The translations under genes were made by a program, and so were the position numbers. Below the pieces are notes generated by a model. The model was not told the DNA's origin. It worked only from the letters and a program-made list of their open reading frames with translations, and did no database searches. Below, one piece after another: positions 13,104 to 28,912 of a stretch of DNA of 64,000 bases. The stretch's first letter is position 1, and every line of letters begins with the position of its first letter. Source of the DNA: Porphyromonas pogonae (GTDB lineage Bacteria > Bacteroidota > Bacteroidia > Bacteroidales > Porphyromonadaceae); the NCBI RefSeq assembly GCF_036320655.1, contig NZ_CP143258.1:2828001-2892000 (forward strand), given 5' to 3'.

Positions 13104-14411
13104 TTAAAAAGCACATTTCAGCGAAAACTTCTCCATTGGGAGTGTTTCGCTGATTTTGTTTATTAGGTACAAAAGAAGTTTCATGGCTCTTTTGAAGTTA
13201 TATGCCGCAGCAGCTAACATTACATTGATAGCATCCCCGAAGAGCCCTTTGTAAAAGTTACGTCCCAAGCGATAATCTGACTTCAAATGTCCGATAGTTG
13301 GTTCTATTCCTGCACGCTTGCAGAAAAGTCGATACTTCTTTTTACGTTGATAATAACTGTCTTTTGCTTTTGGAGTGTCAGGAATCAATATTTGCGTACC
13401 GTTTATTTCTTTTTTCCCACGGTAACCTCTATCTCCCGCCAGTTTCTTAATCCTTTCTCCCGTGAGTCTCTTCACCTGATCGAGGCTTTGCTCTATGGTA
13501 TGTCCGTCGTACTCATTAAGGAAAGAAGAGGCCCCCAAAATCACTCCCGTCATGGAGCGTATAATCGAGACTTTATTTCCAAACTCATATTTTTTGTGCT
13601 CCTTACCTTTACTGATGCATTGAACATCCGGTTCATGAAGAGAATAAATCTTTTGAGTGGAATTACGCCGTTGCCAAAGAATCCTTTCAAAGAGGGAAAT
13701 GAGTTTGTCGTACTCCCTGTTATTACCCGGGTTTCGTTTAAGTTCCCGAACCAAACGTCCGGCTATTGTTCGTAACCGCTTATCCGCTTTAAGAGCTTTC
13801 TTACGGTTCTTGGAATGGTTACGAAAACGTTGATCCCGATAAATTCTTTTCAATACGAAAGTATAGCTTTGACGAATGGGCAGATTGAGAGCCCTTGCGA
13901 TTTTGAGAACCTTGCCTACTATCTTCTTATGCAACTTGGCATCTGTAGGATAAGTCACATTCTTTTCCTGCACGGTGGAGTCTATAAAAGCGGTATCGTG
14001 GTGATCATTCTCAGTTTTGTCATCATTCACACGAATACTTTCTGCAAGAATAAGCTCTATCCCTTTTTCGCCGATACGTTTGCGGAAGTGAACCAGTTCC
14101 GAGGCATTGCAGGGAAAGGAGGGTGTAAACTCCTGCATGCCACAAAAATATTGAAAATAAGCGTTCTCACTCCATTGTTCTACAACAGATTCATCTGAAA
14201 TATTGCGCAAATGCTTGAGAATTAAAAGACCACACATTAAACGAATAGGCTTGCCGGGACGACCATTGTCTGGGCAATACAAGGAAGAAAAAGCCTCTTC
14301 GAACCTTTTCCAATCGATTTTATGGGAAAGTTTATACAGAGGATGTTGCTGGTTGAGCAAATCGTCCAGCGAAGAGAACAGTGATCGAACTGTTTGAGTA
14401 GGGCGTATCAT
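13104..14411 (-). CDS. IS5-family transposase (DDE)
   Basis: A 435-residue transposase. The N-terminal part (NGRPGKPIRLMCGLLILKHL, then ENAYFQYFCG and SELVHFRKRIGEKG) is the DUF772-type domain of IS5/IS1182-like elements. Catalytic acids can be placed in the usual contexts: Asp in FIDSTVQEKNVTYPTDAK, Asp in KLAGDRGYRG and Glu in GIEPTIGHLKSDYRLGR. A basic linker (KNRKKALKADKRLR) lies between the first and second. The length is normal and no frameshift is seen, so it should be functional. Only 5 bases separate the start codon from a perfect 13-bp inverted repeat in the leader. Confidence 0.9.
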   Translation of the reverse strand: MIRPTQTVRSLFSSLDDLLNQQHPLYKLSHKIDWKRFEEAFSSLYCPDNGRPGKPIRLMCGLLILKHLRNISDESVVEQWSENAYFQYFCGMQEFTPSFPCNASELVHFRKRIGEKGIELILAESIRVNDDKTENDHHDTAFIDSTVQEKNVTYPTDAKLHKKIVGKVLKIARALNLPIRQSYTFVLKRIYRDQRFRNHSKNRKKALKADKRLRTIAGRLVRELKRNPGNNREYDKLISLFERILWQRRNSTQKIYSLHEPDVQCISKGKEHKKYEFGNKVSIIRSMTGVILGASSFLNEYDGHTIEQSLDQVKRLTGERIKKLAGDRGYRGKKEINGTQILIPDTPKAKDSYYQRKKKYRLFCKRAGIEPTIGHLKSDYRLGRNFYKGLFGDAINVMLAAAAYNFKRAMKLLLYLINKISETLPMEKFSLKCAF

Positions 14412-15765: not shown

Positions 15766-18093
15766 TTAGAAAATCCAGTTTATCGCCACTCTCACATCAC
15801 GCCCCATATCATGAGCATAATAGCGAGATCTATTGGTGTATTCTTTGTATTGTTTATTGAGTAGATTGTCCGCCGCTATGAGCACTTTTACTTTACTCTG
15901 ATGCGGGAGCTGCCACTGACAACCGGCCTCTATACCCAGTAAGTGATAGGAGGGCGGAGAATAGGGAATAAGATCGGTACGAGGGTCGAAACGTGTTTGC
16001 TTAGCCACAAACCGATGATGTACTGTGATATAAGGGGACTCCCCTTTGAGGCGCCACGGCAAACGCCATGTAAGTGAATGGTCGAGCTTGGGCGCAGGTA
16101 TATAAGGCAGATAGTTGTGAGTAGCAGACTCATTGGCCCAGATAAATGATGAAATCATATGATAAGACCACTGAGAGGCAATGTCCCAAGTAAGATCAAG
16201 ATCAAGACCTCGAAACAAGGCCTTGGTTTGTTTATAGCGAAACACGGGATAAGCCCCTGACACCACGGTCATAATCTGCGTTGTAGGCTCATCATAGATA
16301 TAATTATTGATCTACTGCACATATCCATCCAGCATGATGCGTAGTTGATCAGTCTTATAAGCTAGAGAAGTGATCCACTTATAGCTTTGCTCGGAGCGGA
16401 GGGTGGAGTCGCCCACCATATACATGCCCGAGCCATGCTCCAGTCCATTGCTGTACAACTCATGCACATGGGGAGCTCTCCATGCTACCCCCATATTGGA
16501 AGTAAGGCTCCAGCGGGAGGACAATACATATCTTGTACCCAAGCTGTAAGTAAAGTTGGAGAATCGCCTATGCCCGCCATACCTGCGGCCATAAGCATCA
16601 AAACCATCGGCTCTGGTATCCTGAAAGTCGAGTCTGGCACCTGCCTCTACATTCCACCTGCCACTGCTATATTTCTGAATGCTGTATATACCCCATCCCC
16701 ATTCCGTATAGTTGGGTATTACAGGTACAACACCCGTACCGGGTCTATTGGAGTTGTTGAGGTAAATACTCTGAGCACCTATCCTGGTATGCCACGATGC
16801 ATGATCAAGATCCCATCTGACCTGGTTCTGCAGGGAGTTGAGTCTGAGACTAAGCCCGGGTACATGCGAAAGGTTGTTCCGTCTGATATGATATTCGTTT
16901 CGCCTATCTGCCTGATAAGAAATTTGCCACGAGAGCTTACCCCAATTATCGGATTCGTAGTAAGCCTTGCCATAAACCAAGTGGTGCACCACATGCTGTT
17001 TGGGAATAATAATCTTGCGAGTATAAGGATCGACCTGCACAGGATAGCCAATGGCAATTCTTTCTTTGAGAAGGTCTATATCGCCCAGCTGGGCACTGAG
17101 CATCACTCCTGTCTCAGAGTCATATCTGCTATAATATGCCTCCACCCCATATCTGTACTTGTCCATACCCAAGGACATCGAAAAGTTTTTCTCTCTTACT
17201 CCCGTATTATTAAGGAGATAATTAGCTGTAGCTCTATCTCCGCCATTGATGTATGTACCTTGAATATTCCACGCAAAATCACGTGCAAAAGGCACAGCAC
17301 CCTCAACATACCCGGACAGCACATAGCGATGTCCATTGGAGCCGTAGAGGCTTGAGACTTTGCCATGAACGTCTTGCAGCCTATAGGGCAACAGCCTATT
17401 ATTCATCACAACAACACCTCCCAAGACCTCCGCTCCATAACGCACAGCATCAGCTCCTTTGACAACCTCTATGCTGCCCGAGGTATTCATGTCCAGCTCG
17501 GGGGCATGATCATCCCCCCACTGCTGCCCCGCTTGTCTTACACCATTGTTGATGATGAGGATACGATTGCCGTACATGCCCTGTATCACAGGCTTGGCAA
17601 TCGTAGTACCTGTCTGTATGGAGCTCACTCCGCTTACTTGTTCCAGAAGAGAAGCCAGAGTTTTGCCCAAGGCCTTGTCTATCTGTGACGAGGTGATACG
17701 CTTGTGCACGGCATTCACCGTTATGGGCGCTTTGTCCGAACTCACTATGACTTCTTTGAGCTTATTGAAATTCGCGGACATCCTCACAATGCATACCTTG
17801 CCGGGAGTTATGGCTGTGACAGACATCATCACAGAAGTATATCCCAAGCAACGGATCTCAAAATTGCCTGACAGCTTTGTAGAAGTCGGTATGACTATAT
17901 CGCCATACTTGTCGGGCGTAAAATATTGCTTTGCAACATATACAAATGCAGCATCTACGGGTTCGCCACTATCTTGGTCTATGATACGTAAAATATAGTT
18001 AGTCGCAGGCCGATGCTGCTGGGCATGTACATACCCATACGTCATAATCCATAGAAAGAGAGTAAACAAACCACAAAGAAAGACTCGATACAT
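15766..18093 (-). pseudogene. TonB-dependent receptor interrupted by one in-frame TAG
   Basis: The first part (18093-16312) has a signal peptide ending near VHAQ, a carboxypeptidase-like domain (about residues 30-110), a plug domain and the start of a barrel. The plug contains GQQWGDDHAPELD and SIEVVKGADAVRYGAEVLGG, typical of a Bacteroidetes receptor group. At 16312-16314 a TAG follows LDGYVQ. Reading resumes in the same frame at INNYIYDEPTTQ and runs 181 more residues to INWIF, with the C-terminal aromatic expected of an outer membrane barrel. Both halves are otherwise intact; with one residue at the TAG the protein would be about 775 residues, a normal length. A single base change explains the break. 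It may be a pseudogene, a suppressed stop or a sequencing error. A separate start inside the second half would not yield a working barrel. Confidence 0.85.
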
Positions 18094-18867: not shown

Positions 18868-19054
18868 GAGACTGTTGCAAAAGTCAACAGTCTCGTGGAT
18901 TTTGGAGGCAAAGCCCACAAAAGACACTTTGACCGGGCAGAGAAGGTAAAGTGCAAGGCGCTAAGAGTGAGTGCACAGGGAGTTTACTTCAGGTAAATGA
19001 CCAAGCGCGAATCTCGCAAGCAACGAAGCAATTGGCCTGCTATGCAACGGTCTC
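18868..19054 (+). repeat. MITE-like 187-bp element, copy A
   Basis: It starts GAGACTGTTGCA and ends TGCAACGGTCTC, giving 12-bp terminal inverted repeats with one mismatch. It is flanked by a 5-base direct repeat ATAAT (18863-18867 and 19055-19059). The first 27 bases also fold back on themselves (GAGACTGTTG/CAACAGTCTC). Inside, further short hairpins occur (for example CACTTT with AAAGTG around ACCGGGCAGAGAAGG). There is no coding frame. It lies between the small His/Cys gene and the HU-like gene. Confidence 0.85.
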
Positions 19055-19320: not shown

Positions 19321-19352
19321 TTGACAAAGGGGGTGTAAATGTTATATCTTTG
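19321..19352 (+). promoter_or_regulatory. Promoter of the HU-like gene
   Basis: TTG (19321-19323), a 21-bp spacer and TATCTTTG (19345-19352) fit the Bacteroidetes consensus TTTG-n19-21-TAnnTTTG. A nearly identical segment, TTGACAAAGGGGG up to TATCTTTG, occurs at 56007-56037. The leader to the ATG at 19444 is about 85 bases and contains CCTCCGG/CCGGAGAGG complementarity (19371-19377 with 19399-19407). Confidence 0.7.
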
Positions 19353-19443
19353 TGAAGCAGGCCCTCCGGTAAACTTATATTATTGACACTACCAATCCGG
19401 AGAGGAATGCCTTGTTTATTAATTTATTAAAACTTTATTTATT

Positions 19444-19899
19444 ATGAATTTTTCTTTGAATGAAAGAGTGCTGAAAGTAGGCGAAAAGAAAGGCACAAAA
19501 ATCTATGTGGCACGTCCTGTGTGCCAAAGACAACGTTTTACATTTACAGAGCTTTGTAAAAAAATGAGCGATGGCTCCACGGTAAGCGAACCTGATGTAG
19601 CAGCCGTGTTTTACAAGTTTGTAGCATCTCTCAAGGAGCTATGCAGTCTGGGATATGTAGTGGATGCAGGCCCCTTGGGAAGCTTCAGACCTTCTTTTAG
19701 AAGCAAGTCTGTAGATGATCCTCAAAAATTTGATGTAGAAAAGAACATCTCTCATGCCAAGATTTTGTTCATGGCCAAATCGAGCTTCAGGCGTTTAGAA
19801 AAAATGCAATATTTCCCAGTTCCGAAAGGGTATAATAAACTCAAAAAAGAACCGAAAAAGCCCGTAACTCCCGTTATTGATCCCGGGAGCGGACTGTAA
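19444..19899 (+). CDS. HU/IHF-like DNA-binding protein (HU-HIG type)
   Basis: A 151-residue protein. Residues from about 1 to 130 fit the long HU-like family of Bacteroidetes: a start without signal, RFTFTELCKKMSDGSTVSEPDVAAVFYKFVASLKEL (helical dimer part), then GYVVDAGPLGSFRPSFRSKSV (the beta arm region, with the G-x-F-R-P-S-F pattern), then a helix with conserved basics. The C-terminal tail is short and Lys/Pro-rich. These proteins bend and coat DNA; members of this subgroup are often found beside phage-type amidases. Its own promoter and the long hairpin after it suggest it is expressed more strongly than the following cassette. Confidence 0.8.
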   Translation: MNFSLNERVLKVGEKKGTKIYVARPVCQRQRFTFTELCKKMSDGSTVSEPDVAAVFYKFVASLKELCSLGYVVDAGPLGSFRPSFRSKSVDDPQKFDVEKNISHAKILFMAKSSFRRLEKMQYFPVPKGYNKLKKEPKKPVTPVIDPGSGL

Positions 19900-19950
19900 T
19901 AGTTGCCTTGCTATTATAGAGCAGATAAGTTGAAAAAAAGCTGATGTGAA

Positions 19951-20007
19951 TGCTCTTTGCCCAATCCTACTCCGGAAAGCATGCGCCGGAGAAGATTGGG
20001 AAGAGCA
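19951..20007 (+). terminator. Long hairpin between HU-like gene and lysis cassette
   Basis: TGCTCTT, CCCAATC and TCCGG (19951-19975) pair in order with CCGGA, GATTGGG and AAGAGCA (19986-20007), giving three stacked stems split by small internal loops. No T run follows, so it may act as a partial terminator, attenuator or processing site that keeps the amidase genes low. Confidence 0.55.
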
Positions 20008-20182
20008 TGAAGCTATCTGGCTGTAAGTTGAGCGACCTATCCATATTCTACGCATTACACTCATCTTTAGACATCCCTACTATTCTTCCCCACCTATGTC
20101 ATCTGCCGGCATGACTTGGGTGAGGCAGGAAGAGAGTACCTTATATTCCATTTTATTTATCTTTTATATTTACATATTTACA

Positions 20183-20638
20183 ATGAAAAAACAAGATGTT
20201 CGATATATCATTATCCACTGCTCCGCTACCCGCTGCAACATGACTTATACAGCTTTTCAGCTCGATCAAGATCATAGGATGCGTGGGTTCAAAATGGCAG
20301 GTTACCACTTTTACATACGTCGTGACGGAGAAATAGAATCCATGAGACCCACCAACCACATTGGGGCACATACTTTGGGTTACAATAGCCAAAGTATAGG
20401 AATATGCTACGAGGGGGGACTCTCCACTACGGGCAAAGCCGCAGACACAAGGACAGATGCACAGAAAAGGGCGATCATCAGACTTCTGAGAGTACTTAGA
20501 GCCGACTATCCCTATGCCACCGTATGCGGGCATCGAGACTTGAGCCCCGATCGCAACAAAGACGGTATGATCACTCATGACGAATGGCTGAAGGAGTGCC
20601 CCTGCTTTGATGCCCTGAGGGAGTATGCAAGGCTATGA
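20183..20638 (+). CDS. N-acetylmuramoyl-L-alanine amidase (Amidase_2, endolysin-like)
   Basis: A 151-residue enzyme; the ATG at 20183 is chosen because it gives the standard MKKQDVRYIIIHCSAT start, whereas the longer frame adds a meaningless hydrophobic prefix. Family motifs are in place: IIIHCSAT with His12, YHFYIRRDG around His42, and GHRDLSPD with His117 followed by CPCF with Cys139/141, matching the zinc ligands of T7-lysozyme-like amidases. Residues 123-134 (D-x-N-x-D-G-x-I-x-x-x-E) read as an EF-hand-type calcium loop inserted before the last ligand. There is no signal peptide, as in phage endolysins that need a holin. It overlaps the next gene by ATGA. It cleaves the bond between N-acetylmuramic acid and L-alanine in peptidoglycan. 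Confidence 0.9.
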   Translation: MKKQDVRYIIIHCSATRCNMTYTAFQLDQDHRMRGFKMAGYHFYIRRDGEIESMRPTNHIGAHTLGYNSQSIGICYEGGLSTTGKAADTRTDAQKRAIIRLLRVLRADYPYATVCGHRDLSPDRNKDGMITHDEWLKECPCFDALREYARL

Positions 20639-20841
20639 AACCAACACATCATCAACTAAGATACACGGAACTGATAATGGCTTGCCTCCTGGCTACGGCT
20701 GGGATGTGTCTACTCTTTGTCGCCTTCTATGCCCCACCTCAAGGGGAAATACACACAAGTGTACTGGTGGCGTATGGAGAAGTAATGACCTTTGCCGGAG
20801 GGCTCATGGGGATAGACTATCATTACCGAAGGAATGCTTAG
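20635..20841 (+). CDS. Holin-like two-helix membrane protein
   Basis: A 68-residue protein with two hydrophobic segments (about residues 12-33 and 40-60) and a short charged C-terminus (DYHYRRNA), the classic form of a small phage holin. Its ATG overlaps the amidase stop (ATGA), so translation is coupled. The amidase has no signal peptide of its own, so a pore protein beside it makes functional sense. No family name can be given from sequence alone; holin is inferred from size, topology and position between an amidase and a spanin-like lipoprotein. Confidence 0.6.
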   Translation: MKPTHHQLRYTELIMACLLATAGMCLLFVAFYAPPQGEIHTSVLVAYGEVMTFAGGLMGIDYHYRRNA

Positions 20842-20887
20842 AGAATTAATAAGGACAAAAGCCAATGTTTATAATTTCAGACACAAC

Positions 20888-21391
20888 ATGAATACAAATT
20901 TTATATACTTTATCGCATTATCGGCTATGGTGGCTTTAAATACGAGCTGCAGAACTTCTAAAAAACCGATCCAGGTAGTGGCAGCACATACATCCATAGG
21001 GCTGGTTAGTGTAGATAGTTCTGTAAAAAGTAAAGCAGAGAAAAGGATCGCCGAGACTAGGAGTATGACTATAGAGGAAGAAATTACCGAGATCACGGGG
21101 ATTCCTTCGGGCAACATGCATAAGACCCAAGTGAAAAGAATGAAACGGTACCTTTATGCAACTACAAACAAACAACAGGAACAGGAGCAGACATTATATT
21201 CTCTAAAGAAGACAGACACGCTATGCATGCAATATGACCAAAATCGCCTGAACAAATCGGGCTCGAAAATACGGGAAAGTATTATGAATGTAAAATGGAT
21301 TCTAGGCATGGTACTGGCAATCTCTCTCACAGGAATAATAATTTATAGATTGCATCCCTATCTGATCAAGAAAATGAGATATTCTTGCTGA
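20888..21391 (+). CDS. Lipoprotein with C-terminal membrane anchor (unimolecular spanin-like)
   Basis: A 167-residue protein. The ATG at 20888 gives a good lipoprotein signal (hydrophobic core, then LNTSC, Cys at 21); an upstream start at 20834 would add a basic prefix and overlap the holin-like gene. The middle is charged and Gln/Lys/Glu-rich, likely helical. Residues 137-153 (WILGMVLAISLTGIIIY) form a single membrane helix followed by a basic tail. A lipid anchor at one end and an inner-membrane helix at the other is the layout of unimolecular spanins such as T1 gp11, which join and fuse the two membranes in phage lysis. The assignment rests on topology and context, not on sequence similarity. 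Confidence 0.55.
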   Translation: MNTNFIYFIALSAMVALNTSCRTSKKPIQVVAAHTSIGLVSVDSSVKSKAEKRIAETRSMTIEEEITEITGIPSGNMHKTQVKRMKRYLYATTNKQQEQEQTLYSLKKTDTLCMQYDQNRLNKSGSKIRESIMNVKWILGMVLAISLTGIIIYRLHPYLIKKMRYSC

Positions 21392-21443: not shown

Positions 21444-21630
21444 GAGACTGTTGCAAAAGTCAACAGTCTCGTGGATTTTGGAGGCAAAGCCGACAAAAGA
21501 CACTTTGACCGGGCAGAGAAGGTAAAGTGCAAGGCGCTAAGAGTGAGCGCACAGGGAGTTTACTTCAGGTAAATGACCAAGCGCGAATCTCGCAAGCAAC
21601 GAGGCAATTTGCCTGCTATGCAACGGTCTC
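21444..21630 (+). repeat. MITE-like 187-bp element, copy B
   Basis: Same ends and interior as the copy at 18868 with a few substitutions (for example GAGGCAATTTGCC near the right end). Flanked by the 5-base duplication TAACA (21439-21443 and 21631-21635). It sits between the spanin-like gene and ndh. Confidence 0.9.
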
Positions 21631-28725: not shown

Positions 28726-28912
28726 GAGACTGTTGCAAAAGTCAACAGCCTCATGGATTTTGGAGGCAAAGCCGACAAAAGACACTTTGACCGGGCAGAG
28801 AGGGTAAAGTGCAAGGCGCTAAGAGTGAGTGCACAGGGAGTTTACTTCAGGTAAATGACCTAGCGCGAATCTCGCAAGCAACGACGCAATTTGCTTGCTA
28901 TGCAACGGTCTC
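28726..28912 (+). repeat. MITE-like 187-bp element, copy C
   Basis: Full-length copy with the 12-bp terminal inverted repeats and the 5-base duplication TTCAT (28721-28725 and 28913-28917). It is placed between the 22-bp array and the promoter region of the first SusC gene. Confidence 0.9.

Follow-up and report, generated by a model that had tools for sequence, protein, structure and literature searches.

A phage-type lysis cassette on the chromosome of Porphyromonas pogonae is probably a domesticated lysis system conserved through its family

Why would a bacterial chromosome carry, outside any recognisable prophage, what looks like a complete gene set for the lysis of a Gram-negative cell? 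The question is raised by four ORFs at positions 19444–21391 of a 64,000 nt window, i.e. the whole stretch of DNA that was analysed, which corresponds to positions 2828001–2892000 of the single-contig 2.92 Mb genome of Porphyromonas pogonae (NZ_CP143258.1). A sequence-only reading of the window had proposed that an HU-like protein, an amidase, a two-helix protein and a lipoprotein form a domesticated lysis system at this place. All four ORFs were confirmed there, encoding a HU-HIG protein, an amidase, a protein of 68 aa and a lipoprotein-like product, respectively. Domestication is also the best reading of our data, because the lysis set is complete for a Gram-negative host, lies outside a recognisable prophage, is found family-wide and is under purifying selection. 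The locus is therefore probably a phage-derived lysis cassette that was domesticated and now belongs to the ordinary chromosome, being passed on for the most part vertically, which suggests that bacteria of the Porphyromonas family may deliberately lyse some of their own cells.

The wall-degrading enzyme of the cassette is encoded at 20183–20638 (+ strand, 151 aa) and matched PF01510 (E 4e-19), the PHROGs family 822 ‘lysis; amidase’ (E 1e-50) and T7 lysozyme, its nearest solved structure by sequence in the PDB (E 5e-22). Its N-terminus carries no signal sequence, and the residues H8, Y37, H113, K133 and C135, which we take to be zinc ligands and catalytic residues from what is known of T7 lysozyme, are kept in all 31 aligned cassettes. 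The domain, these conserved histidine, tyrosine, lysine and cysteine residues and the missing signal peptide identify an N-acetylmuramoyl-L-alanine amidase of the Amidase_2 endolysin (T7 lysozyme) type, in agreement with what had been read from the letters alone. An EF-hand-like loop (DRNKDGMITHDEW, 20512–20590), a possible calcium site, is inserted near the active-site end of the enzyme and gave a weak Pfam EF-hand match below the cut-off (E 0.0087).

The gene that follows (20635–20841, + strand, 68 aa) overlaps the amidase stop codon as ATGA. The two-helix topology previously attributed to its product was borne out by a structure model (mean pLDDT 88), i.e. a confident hairpin of two long helices at residues 5–32 and 41–67, both predicted to be membrane helices. 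Searches against the Pfam, TIGR and PHROG families returned nothing significant for this protein or for the lipoprotein-like ORF. A profile built from the 68 aa protein (A1) defined one compact family with the pattern PPxGEIxxSVLVAxGEVxTFAGALxGIDYxYR, which is also present in phages of Bacteroides and Porphyromonas. In P. gingivalis phage021a, the holin-like gene lies directly before the endolysin gene and overlaps it, this endolysin resembling a different amidase family (CwlD/AmiA), and in Bacteroides phage SJC17 it directly precedes and overlaps the gene at the place where related phages carry the amidase. Many of the 80 IMG/VR contigs fetched by the holin family show a holin, an amidase and an ORF of spanin topology in a row; others are without an amidase of the same family beside the holin. 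Two membrane helices, a small size and a gene adjacent to that of an endolysin are the traits of a class II holin, and on the grounds of family and topology the 68 aa protein is holin-like. A search of viral folds with the model yielded no match at E≤0.001, a two-helix hairpin making such a search uninformative.

The last ORF ends at 21391 (+ strand) and may start either at 20888 (167 aa) or at 20834 (185 aa, with a basic N-terminus). It had been described as a lipoprotein with a C-terminal membrane helix, the layout of a unimolecular spanin. The C-terminal hydrophobic helix is indeed present, and the lipobox of the window (ALNTS-C), in itself a weak match, has its cysteine in the alignment column where 21 relatives invariably carry their lipobox cysteine. 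This cysteine is the one invariant column in the 22 aligned sequences, three of which come from viral contigs, the invariance being due in part to selection of several of the sequences by a lipobox pattern, and identity to the relatives is only 7–21 %. When ORFs combining a lipobox with a C-terminal helix were sought by hydropathy and pattern rules, 20 were found at the cassettes automatically and a further two by eye (L121 and L124), i.e. at 22 of 34 cassettes. The relaxed lipobox pattern used here had been set after a stricter one missed the window's own protein; the background, counted with the same relaxed pattern, was 21 such ORFs in 1.32 Mb of other strand sequence, by which about two would be expected near 34 cassettes, and spanin-like ORFs are thus enriched about tenfold. 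The stricter pattern gave an enrichment as well (15 loci near cassettes versus five elsewhere).

The product is therefore unimolecular-spanin-like, an assignment made on topology. As in the unimolecular spanins of the phage T1 type, it combines a predicted N-terminal outer-membrane lipoprotein signal, weak in the window, with one C-terminal transmembrane domain (as defined in PMC10954549); unlike these, it belongs to no shared sequence family that we found, and its structure model is mostly helical and of low confidence. Its gene is fast-evolving (dN/dS 0.35–0.55) and mobile within the cassette: it stands after the holin gene in the window, between the HU and amidase genes elsewhere (e.g. L115, L120, L123, L127 and L128) or between the amidase and holin genes (L139 and L140), with the topology kept in those 22 cassettes. 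In the remaining 12 of 34, P. gingivalis-like ones included, no spanin-like ORF was found, nor was a remnant of the gene when one was sought in two P. gingivalis-like genomes. Unless cassettes without the gene have a different function, lysis by them would depend on some other means of breaching the outer membrane, and the full lysis model may fail to apply to the P. gingivalis-like species. Of the four-gene order, whose conservation the sequence-only reading had put up for checking, the adjacency of amidase and holin thus holds, whereas the place and presence of the spanin-like gene vary.

At the head of the cassette lies the HU-like gene (19444–19899, + strand, 151 aa), whose product contains the Pfam HU-HIG domain PF18291 well above the curated cut-off (E 3.5e-17; 63 bits versus 26.2) and matched TIGR01201 slightly below the cut-off of that model (E 6e-18). 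The genome encodes eight HU-HIG proteins, and its relatives up to 17. This gene was thought to have its own promoter and to be separated from the amidase gene by a long hairpin, and both sequences are present. The promoter-like site (TTGACA ... TATATCTTTG, 19321–19353, + strand), with TTGACA-18-TATCTT at 19321–19350, is a prediction from a 10/12 pattern match, but shuffles of the region contain six such sites on average; read as TAnnTTTG, it corresponds to the Bacteroidota promoter pattern. As a whole, the spacer between the HU and amidase genes folds with −72.9 kcal/mol (z −2.0), but the stem in the window (19950–20008, + strand) is not beyond shuffles when taken alone (p about 0.1). Of 14 HU–amidase spacers whose length was suitable, nine have a best stem beyond shuffles, as would be expected if the lysis genes were transcribed separately or under attenuation; a hairpin in the spacer may act on their transcription after the HU gene in one of these ways. 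For the HU-HIG protein, the most likely roles are to regulate the cassette by binding DNA or to be released bound to DNA. Extracellular HU proteins are reported in biofilms; nothing in the present data ties the HU-HIG protein of the window to them.

Does the cassette mark the edge of a prophage? None of eight flanking proteins matched a named structural or lysis family of PHROGs; a transposase at 13104–14411 matched a PHROGs transposase family. Throughout the genome of the window, there was no match to the profiles for capsid (PF05065), terminase (PF20441) or sheath (PF04984), a search that covers structural genes close enough to be recognised by these three profiles. Both at the locus and by these profiles, the view that the lysis genes stand apart from phage structural genes was thereby supported. 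The capsid and terminase profiles matched the same five genomes of our family comparison group (38 genomes from two genera), that of the window not being one of them, and neither matched in 30 of the 33 genomes in which amidase and holin lie side by side. A phage or plasmid origin was also sought by nucleotide similarity and set aside, as the comparison gave only short amidase matches in two phages and none in plasmids.

The cassette is flanked by two copies of a 187 bp repeat with the ends GAGACTGTTGCA and GCAACGGTCTC, which are 98 % identical and in direct orientation (18868–19054 and 21444–21630). We considered a transposition unit between them and rejected it. With 40 or more copies genome-wide, the repeat is MITE-like and not special to the cassette. 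Six copies fall within the window, all on the + strand, with the further ones at 28726, 37527, 47617 and 55498. Elsewhere in the window, on the reverse strand at 15766–18093, a TonB-dependent-receptor-like gene is split into two ORFs (16312–18093 and 15766–16272), perhaps by a frameshift.

Across the family, the amidase occurs in 36 and the holin in 34 of the 38 genomes. The two lie within about 500 bp of each other in 33, usually once and among housekeeping genes, so that the genes are not scattered in other genomes; two well-assembled genomes (G003 and G030) lack both. A HU-HIG gene is located near the amidase gene in 26 of 31 family genomes. Distances among the copies of each protein follow those of the host marker KorA in 28 genomes, above permutations in each case, with r=0.71 (Mantel) for the amidase, r=0.55 for HU and r=0.26 for the holin. 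These three genes are under purifying selection, with dN/dS values of 0.03–0.22, 0.06–0.28 and 0.07–0.33, respectively. The flanks of the cassette consist of host genes that differ between species groups, indicating that it has changed its place, be it as a unit or through rearrangement of the genome. In a tree of 134 amidases, 33 of the chromosomal copies of the family formed one weakly supported group that fell with copies from Bacteroidaceae, several of the latter being linked to HU-HIG genes; the extra or divergent copies L142, L145, L147 and L148 were placed elsewhere, and the amidase of the window was placed, weakly supported, immediately beside the main group but not in it. Of the amidase genes mentioned in the P. 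gingivalis papers that were consulted for expression data, none could be tied to this locus.

Other Bacteroidales carry variants of the same arrangement. In a thin sample of the order, the holin profile matched 26 of 393 genomes, four of them from the Porphyromonas family. Five genomes of one genus (g23, family f22; L294–L298) show a holin, an M15-type peptidase and a spanin-like ORF in a row, and the flanks of four of these share an HSP70 and a lumazine synthase gene, the fifth (G058) having other host genes there. In family f105, the order is HU-HIG, holin, M15 peptidase and spanin-like ORF among host genes in one genome (G240), and HU-HIG and holin followed by a single ORF that fuses the M15 and spanin-like parts in another (G141); one genome of family f60 (G421) has HU-HIG, holin and amidase. 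Pfam assignments of the M15-type cassettes come from G058 and G240. A 289 aa ORF at about 6153–7022 of L300 (reverse strand), with lipobox-like and C-terminal hydrophobic stretches, likewise has M15-peptidase-like and spanin-like parts and may be a genuine fusion or the result of a frameshift between two genes. The f22 and f105 cassettes thus have the holin family and the spanin topology in common with the Porphyromonas family, with an unrelated wall enzyme. Since this holin family and spanin-like proteins occur elsewhere together with an M15 peptidase that is unrelated to the amidase, it appears to be lysis rather than one particular enzyme that is kept.

The relatives in Bacteroidaceae differ further. 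Their loci (NCBIfam NF033879) also unite HU-HIG with a related amidase, but a one-helix smalltalk protein of 35–50 aa stands in place of the holin and a spanin-like ORF is mostly missing, and so not every HU–amidase locus is an obvious lysis set. We found no functional study of a HU–smalltalk–amidase locus in the literature. Four such loci in Bacteroidaceae-type genomes (L040, L041, L044 and L057) encode smalltalk proteins of 35–47 aa that end in a cysteine motif.

How would such a cassette work? In phage lysis, the holin permeabilises the inner membrane, the endolysin degrades the peptidoglycan and the spanin fuses the membranes. In the known type 10 secretion systems (T10SSs), a cluster of holin, endolysin and spanin genes located outside a phage lyses a small set of cells, from which cytosolic proteins are released (PMC10847048), and the most economical reading of the cassette is that it has the same mechanism. 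The amidase would fold and wait in the cytoplasm while the two-helix protein would gather in the inner membrane and, when triggered, open it; the amidase would then reach the peptidoglycan and cut it, and the lipoprotein, whose lipid would tether it to the outer membrane and whose C-terminal helix would span the inner one, would fuse both. The cell would burst and spill its contents, an event presumably confined to a small part of the population, and the benefit may lie in the DNA, vesicles or cytosolic protein set free as cargo.

Like the T10SSs of Serratia marcescens (ChiWXYZ/SmaLC) and Yersinia entomophaga (YenLC), the genes at 20183–21391 bring together in one chromosomal cluster a peptidoglycan hydrolase and, as judged by family and topology, holin and spanin functions, outside a prophage, amid host genes and next to a gene for a DNA-binding protein (PMC10847048). 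In contrast to them, the cassette belongs to a different phylum, is without known cargo and has a one-piece spanin-like protein where they have Rz/Rz1-type pairs and HU-HIG where they have a regulator of the LysR or OmpR type. The wall enzyme also differs, being an amidase or M15 peptidase in Bacteroidales and, in the Serratia T10SS, an L-Ala-D-Glu endopeptidase, a distinction from the ChiWXYZ/YenLC enzyme that is made by annotation. With the lysis modules of Bacteroides and Porphyromonas phages, the cassette shares the holin family and often the amidase family and a spanin-topology ORF. These modules have the order holin–endolysin, whereas in the cassette the amidase precedes the holin; furthermore, the cassette has no virion genes, is headed by HU-HIG, is nearly universal in the family and diverges as its hosts do. 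Judged by titles and abstracts, in a search that most subscription papers fell outside, we found no description of a T10SS in Bacteroidota.

The same observations bear on what else the cassette could be. Its phage-type components and its different addresses in different species groups would suit the remnant of a decaying prophage or satellite without present function, but this is very improbable given that dN/dS is well below 1 for all four genes, the catalytic residues are invariant, amidase and holin persist together in 33 of the 38 family genomes and further phage genes do not adjoin them. Scarcely any weight can be given to the idea, raised already by the sequence-only reading, that the lysis genes assist a contractile device or, by extension, a gene-transfer particle encoded elsewhere in the genome. 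Such devices and particles do need lysis for their release, yet the sheath profile PF04984 had no match in any of the 38 genomes, positive controls being included, and PF05065 and PF20441 are without matches in the window's genome and in 30 of the 33 cassette genomes, so that the proposed service to a contractile device was dropped. Altruistic defence would leave the lysis machinery as described and change its purpose alone: HU-HIG would sense invading DNA, be it of a phage or a mobile element, and trigger lysis before the invader matures, i.e. abortive infection. The large number of HU-HIG proteins in this genome and its relatives speaks for this, as does an analysis of the HU superfamily from 2017, which reportedly proposed that the Bacteroidetes expansion serves to recognise invasive DNA. 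Defence systems are usually patchy in distribution, however, and the locus is near-fixed in the family and tracks its host; moreover, no PADLOC defence model matched. We consider this purpose unlikely.

A non-lytic use, in which the holin-like protein would pass small amounts of amidase to the periplasm for wall remodelling or to let proteins or vesicles out of cells that survive, is rather doubtful. It would accommodate the P. gingivalis-like genomes that keep HU, amidase and holin without a spanin-like ORF, as well as the Bacteroidaceae loci that mostly lack one, and holin-dependent non-lytic export has been proposed for some toxins (PMC10847048). Nevertheless, most cassettes keep the spanin-like ORF, which is needed only for breaching the outer membrane, and for the T10SS of Serratia, which had long been regarded as non-lytic, lysis was shown to be the mode of action (PMC10847048). 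A domesticated lysis system thus remains our preferred reading.

In sister families, an unrelated peptidase takes the place of the amidase, an exchange which indicates that it is the lytic function on which selection acts. We regard it as evenly balanced whether Bacteroidota own a widespread class of domesticated lytic release systems, nearly universal in the Porphyromonas family, in which a holin and a one-piece spanin are combined with interchangeable wall enzymes (amidase or M15) and often with a HU-HIG protein, which would either control lysis or leave the cell together with DNA. If they do, such a class would be a genetic basis for the release of DNA, vesicles or cytosolic proteins, T10SS-like release would extend to a second phylum, and a job would be suggested for some of the numerous HU-HIG proteins of Bacteroidota. 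The whole family, P. gingivalis included, would then inherit a phage-type self-lysis programme, undescribed as far as our search went, and the route by which extracellular DNA, vesicles and signal-less proteins get out of the cells would become accessible to genetics.
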